DNA from: Desulfomonilaceae bacterium
Lineage (GTDB): Bacteria > Desulfobacterota > Desulfomonilia > Desulfomonilales > Desulfomonilaceae
NCBI GenBank assembly: GCA_031082285.1
Contig: JAVHLK010000024.1
Coordinates: 17,332 to 59,566, forward strand
Direction: 5' to 3'
Length of the DNA: 42,235 nt
Shown here: one piece after another, positions 1,219 to 40,142 of the stretch
Layout: each line of letters begins with the position of its first letter
Position numbering within the stretch: the first letter of the stretch is position 1
Notes under the pieces: model-generated
The model's database searches: none
What the model saw: only the letters and a program-made list of their open reading frames with translations
Told to the model about the DNA's origin: nothing
Position numbers and translations under genes: made by a program

Positions 1219-2163
1219 TCACGCCGGACCCTGACCCACGCTCTCACGTCCCGCGCTACGGATGAGTTCCGGAGTCAGCTCCGAGTGTTCCCGCTCGACT
1301 TGGAGCAAGACAATTGCCCCAATAACCAGGACGGCTCCGAAGATCTGAAGAGGGGCGAGGGCTTCTCCGAGGAAGACGAACGCGATGAAGCCGGCGGAAA
1401 TCGGCTCCATTGTCGAGGTGACCGCGGCGCGAGTCGAACGGATGTGGTTCACGCCGGCGAAGAACAGCCCGAATGCGGCCACGGTGCCGAAAAGCACGAT
1501 GAAAAGAATAAGCCCCCACTCGTGCATGGTGTACGACGACTGCAGAAATGCCAGGGGCGGCCGGACCACGTTCCACGTCACCGCGGCGAACACCATTGAG
1601 TAGAAGACGACGGTCCACGGCCGGTAGCGATGCATCATACGTTCGCCCACAAGGGTGTACGCGGTGAAGAAGACTGCAGAGCAAATTGCCGCAATGATAC
1701 CGACCCGATTCATGTGGAGCAGTTCCACGTTATAGGCTCCGACGACCAGGTAGCACCCGAGCAGCGCCAGTACAAGGGCGAAAACCTTGGAAACGGTGAG
1801 ACGTTCGCCCCAGAAGAGCACGGAATACACCGCCACCATTATGGGTGCCGTGTACTGGATCAATATGGCGGCCACCACCTGAATCTTGCTGATGGCAAAC
1901 AGGTAGGTGAACTGTACCGTCGCCATGATAAGGCCGCCGAGCAGCAGCATGGAGCTCACGTCGCGCAACCGGATACGGAGTTGAGCGGGAGCCGACATCC
2001 CCAGAACGAGAACCATGGCGAGTGCGGCAAGGGTAACCCTCACTTGAACCAGCTCGAAAGGAGTCATGCCTGCAAGAAAGAGGGCCTTCCCCGCGGTACC
2101 CGATGAAGCCCACAGTACTGCGGCGGCCATCACATAAAGATACCCCCGTGTCGTCGCCTTCAT
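1219..2163 (-). CDS. EamA/DMT-family transporter (10 TM)
   Basis: A 314-residue polytopic inner-membrane protein with the internal duplication of two five-helix EamA domains. Repeat 1 begins GYLYVMAAAVLWASSGTAGK, the characteristic Trp/Ser-rich helix. Repeat 2 begins GIIAAICSAVFFTAYTLVGE and ends with the AFVFLGEALAPLQIFGAVLVI motif. Family members export or import small metabolites such as amino acids and nucleosides; the substrate cannot be read from sequence. I chose the ATG at 2163 behind an AAAGGCGG-type ribosome-binding site; a TTG two codons upstream is possible. It is a single gene, with no operon partner close by. Confidence 0.9.
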   Translation of the reverse strand: MKATTRGYLYVMAAAVLWASSGTAGKALFLAGMTPFELVQVRVTLAALAMVLVLGMSAPAQLRIRLRDVSSMLLLGGLIMATVQFTYLFAISKIQVVAAILIQYTAPIMVAVYSVLFWGERLTVSKVFALVLALLGCYLVVGAYNVELLHMNRVGIIAAICSAVFFTAYTLVGERMMHRYRPWTVVFYSMVFAAVTWNVVRPPLAFLQSSYTMHEWGLILFIVLFGTVAAFGLFFAGVNHIRSTRAAVTSTMEPISAGFIAFVFLGEALAPLQIFGAVLVIGAIVLLQVEREHSELTPELIRSAGRESVGQGPA

Positions 2164-14559: not shown

Positions 14560-15169
14560 GCGTCCACATCGAATCGACACGCGTCGCCTAGTGCTCTGTG
14601 GCATAAACCTCCATGATCGGGGCGATCACAACTGACCAAGGGCGTTAAGTTAAGCCCGTTGGTCAGGTTCCTCTTGGTTCGATTCATGCCGTCCCGAAGG
14701 GACACGTCCCGCGTCTCGCGGGATTAGCCGGGCCTTTCAAGGCCCGGAAATCGACGGCCGAACATGGTGGACGCGTCCTGAAGGGACGCCGGAATGCCCT
14801 CCATCGTGAATACATTCACGTGCGCCGTCCCTTCGGGACGGATCTTGTTACAATTCTCCCGTACTTTCCGGGGGATGAATCCCCCGGCTAACTTCGCATG
14901 TGCCTTCAGCACATTAAGATCGCGGAATCTCAACACCCGAACACTGTGGACGATCCACGGTTTGTGTGCCGCAGAAAAGCGGATTGGCAGCCAAAATCCT
15001 TACAACCGAATGACCGAGAAGCGCGATCACGTCGGAAGGGAACAAAAATACTTTGCAAGTGGACGTCCGTGCGCGTAGAGTGAAAGAGTACTCAACGATG
15101 CGGCGGTTCGTCCGCGGTGTACCTGCAGAGGTCAACTCGCCGACAAATGCGACTTCACGAGGTTTCTCC
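14560..15169. other. dnaK downstream stretch containing the palindrome cluster
   Basis: About 610 bases without a gene. The middle third is the palindrome array described separately. The last third, before the secreted protein at 15170, shows no feature that I can support. Confidence 0.5.
14691..14887. repeat. REP-like palindrome cluster
   Basis: Seven short perfect palindromes lie in about 200 bases: GTCCC-GAA-GGGAC (14691-14703), TCCCGCG-TCT-CGCGGGA (14707-14723), CCGGGCCTT-TC-AAGGCCCGG (14728-14747), GCGTCC...GGACGC (14773-14789), GTGAAT-AC-ATTCAC (14806-14819), CCGTCCC-TTC-GGGACGG (14825-14841) and CCGGGGGAT-GA-ATCCCCCGG (14868-14887). This is the organisation of BIME/REP arrays that RAYT transposases recognise. 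It lies between genes, 3' of dnaK. Confidence 0.75.
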
Positions 15170-19327: not shown

Positions 19328-19425
19328 GGAGGTGGTAGAGTCCTGGTGGGCTCCGCGGTCTTCAAAACCGTCAGCAGGGCGCTAGTACCGTCCTGGGTGG
19401 GTTCGATTCCCATGCACCTCCGCCA
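19328..19425 (+). tRNA. selC: tRNA-Sec (anticodon TCA)
   Basis: The 98 nt fold as bacterial selenocysteine tRNA. A long acceptor stem, GGAGGTG with CACCTCC, is followed by discriminator G and an encoded CCA. The D-arm is 6 bp (GAGTCC-TGGT-GGGCTC), diagnostic for tRNA-Sec. The anticodon arm is GCGGT-CTTCAAA-ACCGT with TCA. The long variable arm has a CAGGGCG/CGTCCTG stem, and the T-arm is GTGGG-TTCGATT-CCCAT. The eighth acceptor pair would be G-G rather than Watson-Crick. It decodes UGA at SECIS-bearing mRNAs with SelA/SelB, so the organism makes selenoproteins; selA, selB and selD are not in the window. Confidence 0.95.
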
Positions 19426-19517
19426 CCTTCGGGCCGCGCGTCCGGCATCCGGACGCACCTCACTCCCATTGCAAGACACAGCCAAGGGAAGAATTATGCC
19501 GCGAGGAGGAAGTCCTT

Positions 19518-38754: not shown

Positions 38755-39648
38755 CTATTGGGGCATGCAATGCTCACAGCAAAGTCGGCAGGAGCAACCT
38801 TTACCGAGGACGAAGTGTCTTGCCCCGACAACTATAGTTCCTTTTCTGTCAATTCTCCCGTAGATCCGGTCAAACAGATCCGTTTCGGCGTGATCGAAAA
38901 AGCGTCTAAAGGCGTACGCGCAAACGTCCGCTATCTGGACCATGCTGGTGAACTTACTGTCCACAAACACGGGGGGTTCCACTATATGTTCAATGCTCCG
39001 ATATCGCGTTCCGAAATCATGGTACTGGGTCATTGCCTTCGTCAACCTACTTGCTACCGTGCTGTTGTTATCCTGAATCAAGATCCCGTGAGCTTTCGAT
39101 CCATGCAATTTTGCCATGGCTTCAAGAGATGCATCGAATCTTGTTACGACTTGCAGAAAGGCTTGCTCAAAAATCTGCATGGGTTGCATCGAACGACATG
39201 ATGTCTTGTCAATGGATTCCGCAAAGATACGCACAAATTGCATATTATTCAAAGTATCAAGCAAATCCCTCAGCAACTGTATTCTCTCGGAATAGTCCAA
39301 GTGAAAGTATGGCTTGGATTTATCATATCTTTTCTTTTCCTCCCCATATTTCTTCTTCGTTGCACCAGTGTGGGTGCCGACAAGAATCTTCTTCCATTCC
39401 TCATCGGTTTGGCGCCGGAGATCCGATCTATTGGAAGCGGTCAAACCTTGTTGTGCCTGATATCTGCGGGCAAGCCATCCCGTGTGAATCTCGGTATCGT
39501 CAAGCCCATAGCGCGACTTGATTAGGCTGAGACTGGAATTCACGGCCTTCCACTGGAAATCGGGAAAGGCCACTCCCAGCAACACAAAGTGGTCGGTATT
39601 GCCGGTGTGGTCAGTTGTTCCAGATTCATCGAGGTAGCAAAGATACAC
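38755..39648 (-). CDS. DUF3800 family protein
   Basis: A 297-residue protein with the DUF3800 start MYLCYLDESGTTDHTGNTDH, where the paired Asp/Glu (YLDESG) is the family hallmark. The middle acidic IFAESIDK and the C-terminal FVDSKFTSMVQIADVCAYAF (Asp in QIADV) complete the set. The arrangement resembles an RNase H-like fold, and the proteins occur near defence and mobile genes; activity has not been assigned. GTG start at 39648; the ribosome-binding site is poor. The base composition is AT-richer than its neighbours, suggesting acquisition. Its stop is separated by a single base from the kinase stop on the opposite strand. A terminator-type hairpin lies 22 nt upstream of its start. Confidence 0.9.
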   Translation of the reverse strand: MYLCYLDESGTTDHTGNTDHFVLLGVAFPDFQWKAVNSSLSLIKSRYGLDDTEIHTGWLARRYQAQQGLTASNRSDLRRQTDEEWKKILVGTHTGATKKKYGEEKKRYDKSKPYFHLDYSERIQLLRDLLDTLNNMQFVRIFAESIDKTSCRSMQPMQIFEQAFLQVVTRFDASLEAMAKLHGSKAHGILIQDNNSTVASRLTKAMTQYHDFGTRYRSIEHIVEPPVFVDSKFTSMVQIADVCAYAFRRFFDHAETDLFDRIYGRIDRKGTIVVGARHFVLGKGCSCRLCCEHCMPQ

Positions 39649-39659
39649 GAGACGTCCGT

Positions 39660-39762
39660 GTCAAAAAGAAAGCGCGACGGTTTCCGTCGCGCTTATCCTT
39701 CGATCTGTTAAGCGTCTAGGGCGGGGCAATCGTCCCGCGTGAGTCAAACGTCTCTCCTAGAC
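39660..39762 (-). ncRNA. Candidate small RNA or attenuator leader of the DUF3800 gene
   Basis: On the minus strand, promoter boxes 39797-39769 predict a start at 39762, the first base of a stem GTCTAGG (39762-39756) paired with CCTAGAC (39720-39714). Inside it GCGGG pairs with CCCGC. Next, GCTTA (39713-39709) can pair with TAAGC (39695-39691). Four bases of that last arm are also the start of an 11-bp terminator hairpin (39694-39670) followed by TCTTTTT. The folded unit is about 103 nt. It ends 11 nt before the DUF3800 start codon, so it is either a self-contained sRNA or a conditional terminator. It matches no riboswitch I know. Confidence 0.55.
39670..39694 (-). terminator. Intrinsic terminator in DUF3800 leader
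   Basis: AAGCGCGACGG-AAA-CCGTCGCGCTT (minus strand): a perfect 11-bp stem with a 3-nt loop, followed by TCTTTTTG. Confidence 0.8.
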
Positions 39763-39768
39763 AACCTA

Positions 39769-39797
39769 AGTTTAAGCCGCGGTGGGAAACTTGTCAA
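39769..39797 (-). promoter_or_regulatory. Sigma-70 promoter reading toward DUF3800
   Basis: On the minus strand: TTGACA (39797-39792), 17 nt, TAAACT (39774-39769). The -35 is perfect and the -10 matches four of six. The predicted start coincides with the 5' arm of the structured leader. Confidence 0.65.
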
Positions 39798-39908
39798 CAA
39801 AAAAACAATCGTTCTTTATGAACGCTCTCAGGCTTAAGATACCACAGTGTAGTCCCATCGCTCCACGAAAGAGCGTCGGATCCGGACGTGGTTGTGGCGA
39901 CGGGAGAG

Positions 39909-40142
39909 TCATCGTGCTACCCGTGTCGTAGGCGGTTCATTCTCCCGAGAGAACCTCTCCTCTTTCGTCGTAATCCCGATTGGCCCAATATGCCACGAAC
40001 CAGGACCATTCACCTCGTCCGGTCTCCAGACTACGGGAAAGCCGGCGGATTGCAACTGCTCAAAAACGCGGCAAATCGTCCGTTTGTGAGCGTGAAGCGA
40101 TTTACAAATCTCCTCGCAAGTGAGTCCGTTCGGTGCTCTCAC
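39909..40142 (-). pseudogene. Remnant of a helix-turn-helix (WYL-regulator-type) protein
   Basis: The 77-codon frame from GTG 40142 reads GLTCEEICKSLHAHKRTICR, then VFEQLQSAGFPVVWRP. This matches the HTH_11/DeoR-like N-terminal domain of WYL regulators (family form: LT.EELA..L.VSRRTVYRDLE.L..AGFPI). The frame stays open upstream to about 40232 without another start codon. After SWHIGPIG homology ends, and the WYL ligand domain (about 200 residues) is absent. It is most likely a truncated regulator. Confidence 0.55.

Follow-up and report, generated by a model that had tools for sequence, protein, structure and literature searches.

A conserved RNA of about 60 nucleotides, folded as a three-way junction, stands directly before the DUF3800 gene in the relatives of the gene studied here, and because this placement is kept among them the RNA is almost certainly a real partner of the protein. 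The gene itself lies in a 42,235-nucleotide stretch of a Desulfomonilaceae genome (the window), behind an RNA that is very probably homologous to the new class as a divergent member. Our preferred reading, to which we give a probability of about 0.5, is that the two form a self-contained two-part module, made of a small structured RNA and a predicted RNase HII-like nuclease, DUF3800.

On the minus strand of the window a promoter, a folded RNA and a terminator precede the DUF3800 gene within 39797-39660, as follows (R2 is a model of the RNA class, described below):

39769-39797, minus strand: predicted sigma-70-like promoter, -35 TTGACA (39797-39792), spacer of 17, -10 TAAACT (39774-39769)
39714-39762, minus strand: three-way-junction RNA, from folding; aligned by model R2 over 39764-39712
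39756-39762, minus strand: closing stem, 5' arm GUCUAGG, pairing with 39720-39714, from folding
39714-39720, minus strand: closing stem, 3' arm CCUAGAC, from folding
39741-39754, minus strand: hairpin 1, GAG..CUC, from folding
39721-39738, minus strand: hairpin 2, GCGGG-ACGAUUGC-CCCGC, from folding
39663-39694, minus strand: intrinsic terminator, 11-bp stem (39694-39670) with a 3-nt loop, tail UCUUUUU (39669-39663)
38755-39648, minus strand: DUF3800 gene (PF12686), 297 aa, GTG start, free of stops and frameshifts

Transcription is predicted to start at 39762, 6 nt past the -10 element, which is exactly where the 7-bp closing stem begins; in the folded structure this stem encloses the two hairpins. 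Hairpin 1 may be read as GAGAC-GUUU-GACUC, with an A.A mismatch where most relatives have U.U, and the 3' end of the RNA, CCUAGACGC (reaching 39712), is identical in the relative L147. The 103-nt RNA stretch ends at 39660, and the GTG start (39648) follows 11 nt beyond it. The folding energy of these 103 nt is -45.6 kcal/mol, against -26.5 ± 3.1 for shuffled sequences (z -6.1; 0 of 200 shuffles). A 2.3-kb scan showed no enrichment of promoter-like sites (2, against 1.5 ± 1.3 in shuffles) and no clear enrichment of terminator-like sites (6, against 2.5 ± 1.7); since promoter-like sites are equally common in shuffles, the promoter is meaningful by its position and not by its consensus. The sequence features named by the original prediction, that is the -35 and -10 elements, a 7-bp closing stem at the predicted start, a further stem and a terminator 11 nt before DUF3800, are all present, so that promoter, structured RNA and terminator before the gene are confirmed. 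Its proposal of a discrete RNA belonging with DUF3800 is supported, since the promoter is placed to begin this RNA with the closing stem and the terminator to end it.

The window protein matches 19 of the 395 genomes of its phylum, its own genome counted. The first relatives found with a common RNA before the gene were two full-length loci (L004, L005), an N-terminal remnant (L014) and a Leptospira weilii plasmid (L022), in which the RNA reads GCGUCUGG..GAGUCGC..GCG(U/A)CUC..CCAGUCGC. We then took four aligned proteins as the query for a scan of 84,980 species genomes and kept the best 80 of 113 loci; with six loci from viral contigs these make 86, to which L022 is added. A viral scan with the window protein as sole query gave no match. 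Two loci (L097, L103) were dropped for want of a start region, leaving 85 with the region upstream of the start codon. Drawn as they are from the best 80 of 113 loci, the six viral ones and L022, 84 of these 85 relatives carry the ~60-nt three-way-junction RNA before the gene, and the check named in the original prediction, whether homologous loci keep the stems, turns out in its favour. The RNA was detected by a regular expression in 78 loci, by the covariance model R1 in five more (L049, L058, L062, L086, L095) and by folding in one (L093); in the sole exception, L101, the 3' half of the RNA is all that is present and the gene is interrupted. Near-duplicates are counted among the 85, namely six near-identical Leptospira-type loci and the pair L033 and L053, which have the same RNA. 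In the protein tree, named rows bear 16 NCBI phylum labels, some of which may err, as most rows are metagenome-assembled genomes.

The layout around the RNA is regular. In 78 loci, from which the duplicates L053, L106, L108, L109 and L022 were left out for the promoter and U-run statistics, the RNA is 57-65 nt long and the DUF3800 start codon lies a median of 28 nt downstream. In 56 of the 78 the gap between the end of the best promoter and the start of the RNA is 6-8 nt, and the commonest distance between -10 and RNA is 6 nt (33/78), as in the window. A best -35/-10 pair 4-9 nt before the RNA was found in 72% of loci, compared with 13% in shuffled upstream DNA, the control being single-base and not dinucleotide shuffles. 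A U-run (at least six T in 9 nt) directly behind the closing stem is present in 73 of 78 relatives; Leptospira-type members are without it. For the 13 members of the new class that were scanned against Rfam 15, at E limits of 1, 10 and 3, the RNA had no match.

Covariation strongly supports the new RNA class. The alignment of 80 rows was fitted to the structure beforehand; it leaves out L053, L064, L093, L097, L101, L103, L106, L108 and L109, keeps an extra copy from L082 (2582-2642) and contains one identical pair (L022 and L105), so that 79 rows are distinct. In it, 17 of 23 pairs show changes on both sides, and such double-sided changes amount to 130 cells, where shuffles give 35.6 and none of 500 reaches the observed count. 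Shifting one partner by 1-3 columns lowers the paired cells from 87.5% to 46.5% or less. A control with plain MAFFT, restricted to the two sequence-conserved stems in 72 rows (without L049, L058, L062, L064, L086, L093, L095 and duplicates), agrees with this count: both sides change in 7 of 16 pairs, double changes are found in 23 cells where shuffles give 5.7 and none of 500 gets that far, and shifting the partner reduces the paired cells from 86.5% to 46.7% or less. The number of pair types in the same 72 rows and two stems is not above that of shuffles (12 versus 12.1).

The two conserved stems resemble each other. A U.U mismatch is found at one fixed place of the closing stem in 73 of 80 rows and of hairpin 1 in 68, with both present in 67; in L058 and L080 the two stems are free of mismatches. 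The six-pair duplex around the mismatch is identical in closing stem and hairpin 1 in 63 of the 80 rows, and in L078 and L104 both copies have changed alike, a concerted change that at least as many rows showed in 34 of 10,000 permutations, a figure that ignores kinship. At L064 (2873-2930), folding gives a junction RNA with U.U in the closing stem and in both hairpins, where hairpin 2 resembles a second hairpin 1; a swap of the two hairpins was considered for this locus and rejected in favour of that fold.

Where the window RNA stands with respect to this class was assessed with two models, R1, made from 22 typical members, and R2, made from the 80 rows with the window left out. The narrower R1 gave no match at the site of the window RNA. 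R2 aligns it at full length (1-60) at 39764-39712, a weak match of 13.4 bits, with an E value of 0.0013 over 201 bases and 0.27 over the 42-kb window, where it ranks third behind one perfect hairpin counted on both strands; a search of the window's own genome with R2 at E <= 1 reported no RNA, the window site itself being too weak for that threshold. In the window we find a three-way junction 6 nt after the -10 and before a DUF3800 gene of the same subfamily. The U.U mismatches of both conserved stems and the U-run abutting the closing stem are absent there: the closing stem is fully paired, hairpin 1 has A.A, and the terminator is separate. Hairpin 1 opens with GAGAC in the window and in L058, L078 and L147, as well as in L093, which lies outside their clade. 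The window protein groups with L058, L064, L078 and L147 (SH-aLRT 97; 92 without L147), all four of which have aberrant RNAs; this clade joins long branches and may in part be an artefact. Aberrant RNAs also occur outside it (L049, L080, L086, L093, L100), and the alignment of RNAs for a third, clade-specific model was poor. We favour kinship because the window RNA has the same place and 6-nt spacing, shares the letters GAGAC and CCUAGACGC, and belongs to a protein of this clade.

The linkage between RNA and gene was followed in both directions. Starting from the protein, 74 of 81 genes are open frames (L106, L108, L109 and L022 left out), none of them without the RNA, and six of the seven interrupted genes keep it; the interruptions stem from draft assemblies and are possibly sequencing errors. 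Starting from the RNA, we searched five phylum samples with R2 (297, 301, 236, 237 and 237 genomes; 1304 without the four seed genomes), using for searches of more than 40 genomes stricter filters that lose weak matches. This gave 20 matches, from which we subtracted those of the four seed genomes and one false match (G1163, L146, a perfect hairpin). Of the 15 believable matches that remain, 14 precede a DUF3800 gene or its remnant: 11 have an open DUF3800 frame, one is frameshifted (L142), two are N-terminal remnants and one is gene-free (L128). Several of the genomes concerned had already been reached through the protein. A pattern scan of viral sequences gave seven matches, two of them new, one with an intact gene (L133) and one with codons 1-28 only (L135). 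Genome-wide, a single place for the RNA was found in 15 of the 16 genomes reached through the loci, one of which also gives a signal on the opposite strand; in the remaining one, that of the divergent L093, the genome search found no place for the RNA.

Three loci keep promoter and RNA with a DUF3800 gene that is cut to 27 codons (L111, G156), 34 codons (L131, G480) and, in the viral contig L135, 28 codons. All three break at nearly one codon, and no C-terminal piece of DUF3800 was found downstream within ~8 kb (L148), 19 kb (L149) and 9.7 kb (L135). The window's own genome has a second DUF3800 gene (L002, open frame 1366-1986, minus strand), which is partial, being cut by the contig edge; past its stop and on the opposite strand, at L002:1304-1350, lies a stretch that resembles a promoter and contains a stem-loop element. 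A BLAST search of plasmids and phages with the consensus RNA found nothing, and its insensitivity is shown by its missing the known Leptospira plasmid member as well.

Structured RNAs before DUF3800 genes have been described before. Rfam DUF3800 RNAs named in the available text of PMC11701678 are DUF3800-I and -IX. The window stretch matched no Rfam DUF3800 family at E <= 10, staying below the gathering score of DUF3800-VI (35 bits), and it gave no riboswitch match in the Rfam search, in line with the original statement that it resembles no known riboswitch family. Two other Rfam matches in the stretch, ncS54 (22.7 bits, gathering 43) and MicC, were rejected as terminator look-alikes. A survey from 2017 reportedly named a wider set of DUF3800 RNAs, I to XI. 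The Rfam DUF3800 RNAs other than DUF3800-VI are like the window RNA in being structured RNAs named for DUF3800 genes, and differ from it in that they match neither the window (E <= 10) nor the 13 loci of the new class.

DUF3800-VI (RF02915, typed Cis-reg) was found in more distant relatives (L006-L010, L012 and the phage locus L023). Like the RNA of the window it lies upstream of DUF3800 and forms a three-way junction. Its closing stem has 8 bp, its hairpin 1 has 7 and its hairpin 2 has 5, and its linkers, of 1 nt and 2 nt, equal those of the window RNA. It differs in its conserved sequence, and no match to it was obtained in the window or in the 13 new-class loci scanned. It also occurs as tandem pairs (L007, L008, L009), whereas the new class is single in the loci seen, barring the degenerate extras in L082, where two such copies (1581-1641 and 2582-2642) lie upstream of the normal RNA and next to ORFs that, we presume, resemble REP-associated transposases. 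The phage locus is from Pseudomonas phage vB_PeaS_FBPa47, where the DUF3800-VI RNA (L023:2895-2950) lies before DUF3800, ~2 kb from a Cro-like gene.

Small plasmids from E. coli and Klebsiella carry a third RNA sequence. The three examined have, as the window does, a junction, a separate terminator and the start of DUF3800, at these places:

L151:1492-1600, L152:1292-1400 and L153:392-500: enterobacterial plasmid RNAs, before DUF3800, from folding

This RNA likewise has no DUF3800 match in Rfam. The known association of DUF3800 with RNAs gains an RNA class without a match in Rfam 15 (13 members scanned), one that is compact (a single ~60-nt RNA and a single gene), widespread and supported by covariation, and one plan of three-way junction, terminator and DUF3800 lies behind three RNA sequences: those of the new class, of DUF3800-VI and of the enterobacterial plasmids. 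In the available text of the literature that mentions DUF3800 we found no tested function for the protein or its RNAs; with the shared plan, the role of these RNAs is directly testable in E. coli.

The protein belongs to DUF3800, matching PF12686 with an E value of 1.9e-16 (61.5 bits, gathering 21), and is 31-44% identical to 72 other relatives. In the 73 proteins D7, E8, E53, H55, D193 and D241 are invariant, and C285, C287 and C290 of a C-terminal CxCxxC motif nearly so. An AlphaFold2 model built from the 73 relatives has a pLDDT of 95.5. Among solved structures the best matches to it are 1eke, an RNase HII (Z 10.8, with an rmsd of 4.0 across 167 residues), and 3puf, an RNase H2A (Z 10.5). 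Foldseek gave a best E value of 1.4e-3, none under 0.001, and the top 20 among the matches listed are RNases H. The fold is thus predicted to be RNase HII-like. It has in common with RNase HII and H2A a DE motif at residues 7-8, which we take to be equivalent to the active site of RNase HII, and the invariant D7, E8, D193 and D241 suggest nuclease activity. It differs from these enzymes in an identity of 11-13%, extra helices, the C-terminal CxCxxC and its linkage to an RNA. Searches of PADLOC, NCBIfam and PDB sequences yielded nothing useful, and phrog_38260 is a family of unknown function. An RNase H fold for DUF3800 has been published before, according to the available text of PMC10910872 and PMC12669027; its nearness to RNase HII specifically, as predicted, comes from the structure searches made here.

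Computation shows the individual parts and how they are ordered and spaced, an RNA that is conserved and covaries in relatives, its tight linkage to the gene, and the predicted fold of the protein; together these could work as follows. Transcription would begin, from a single promoter, with the RNA's first base. Most transcripts would end at the terminator, releasing a free three-way-junction RNA of ~60-100 nt, and occasional readthrough would give the DUF3800 message, so that RNA output would exceed protein output. DUF3800 would bind the RNA, and may do so as a dimer, since the six-pair duplex with its mid-stem mismatch occurs twice in most members (the window RNA is not one of these), and the bound RNA would restrain the nuclease, like the RNA of type III toxin-antitoxin loci. 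That the RNA acts on the protein, rather than solely as a leader, we consider probable; that its action is inhibitory and antitoxin-like is argued by analogy, and we would put this a little short of even odds. The pattern of presence in this sample, with no open gene lacking the RNA and RNAs beside broken genes, fits an antitoxin and also an RNA needed for activity.

The analogy is one of order. Type III toxin-antitoxin loci consist, according to the available text of PMC8860590, of a promoter, a structured RNA, a short terminator and a nuclease gene, and the window shows features i, iii and iv of that text, including -35/-10 before the RNA and a short terminator before the gene. The tandem antitoxin repeats of type III loci are absent from the window, where no tandem repeat is found at 39500-40000. 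The ToxN fold is unlike an RNase HII-like fold, and DUF3800 is predicted to have the latter, which sets it apart from ToxIN-type loci. With no tandem repeats and a different fold, membership of the window module in type III was rejected.

A more elaborate version of the preferred reading would have a distinct kind of RNA-controlled module that has reached many phyla by horizontal transfer, in which an RNase H2-like dimer is gripped by a pseudo-two-fold junction RNA through the two copies of the mismatched duplex and is released on phage attack or loss of the RNA. We regard it as a speculation with the odds clearly against it; were this grip real, solitary RNAs such as that of the viral contig with the first 28 codons (L135) would be phage-borne decoys.

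The alternative that best withstands the data, which we nevertheless hold to be rather unlikely, is an autoregulated leader: DUF3800 would bind or cut its own 5' RNA and so set termination and its own level, the RNA having no other role. The RNA does sit between promoter and gene, and in the same direction, in the loci of the relatives; the closing stem is the likely terminator stem in most of them (the U-run behind it in 73/78), so that binding could alter termination; and the predicted nuclease fold would suit a protein that cuts RNA. The window and the enterobacterial plasmids depart from this in having a separate terminator after the junction, and RNAs outlast the gene in two cellular remnants, a viral one and one gene-free place, where the decay is possibly recent.

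The strict co-occurrence of RNA and DUF3800 would also suit an RNA that activates, with DUF3800 as an RNP effector whose action on damaged or invading nucleic acid depends on it. DUF3800 proteins, called RNase H-fold nucleases, occur in some type V-A2 and VI-F CRISPR loci according to the available text of PMC10910872 and PMC12669027. The RNAs of the class, though, have no variable guide segment, two stems being conserved in sequence and the variable hairpin 2 keeping its pairing, and no defence family is common among the neighbours. In 121 flanking ORFs (called mechanically, 17 of 138 being left out of the scan) no Pfam family was matched by more than two and no PADLOC model by more than four; the defence models matched by some single ORFs are raw matches with no background rate for comparison. 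The defence setting of DUF3800 invoked by the original prediction is thus not borne out, and an activating RNA seems to us unlikely.

The roles could also be reversed, with a harmful RNA and DUF3800 as the antidote that degrades it. In a Tn-seq study a strain-specific DUF3800 gene, of unspecified subfamily, was essential and listed beside antitoxins, according to the available text of PMC7811196; since the loss of a toxin should be harmless, this essentiality counts against a toxin role of DUF3800. Intact RNAs are found, on the other hand, beside broken DUF3800 genes, in six of the seven interrupted genes, in two cellular remnants and in a viral one, and we judge a reversal of roles quite improbable.

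The weakest alternative is the attenuator or metabolite riboswitch of the original prediction, which took the last stem and the terminator to compete because they share four bases. The sharing exists: GCUUA (39713-39709) can pair with UAAGC (39695-39691) in a 5-bp stem, and AAGC is common to it and the terminator. The competition does not hold, as the competing stem, if forced, stands at +8.9 kcal/mol and has a pair probability of 0.000, compared with 0.86 for the terminator, of which a 7-bp hairpin still remains with that stem forced. Neither energies nor pair probabilities gave two mutually exclusive folds of comparable stability for the window RNA. In the relatives the U-run abuts the closing stem in 73 of 78, leaving no room for a competing stem, and an alternative re-pairing of the four conserved segments (1:2, 3:4) was rejected, with 82.8% of cells pairing and a covariation of 0.027, against 0.028 in shuffles. 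With these results, and with DUF3800 subgroups that carry different RNA sequences in one shape, a better fit to recognition by a protein than to a shared ligand, we consider an attenuator or riboswitch most improbable.

Two further RNAs were noted elsewhere in the window. A selenocysteine tRNA (71 bits) is found at 19328-19421, and just after it, at 19438-19456, is a perfect GC-rich hairpin that may be its terminator. An Acido-Lenti-1 RNA lies at 14868-14913, with a score (38.5 bits) slightly over the family cut-off of 37.
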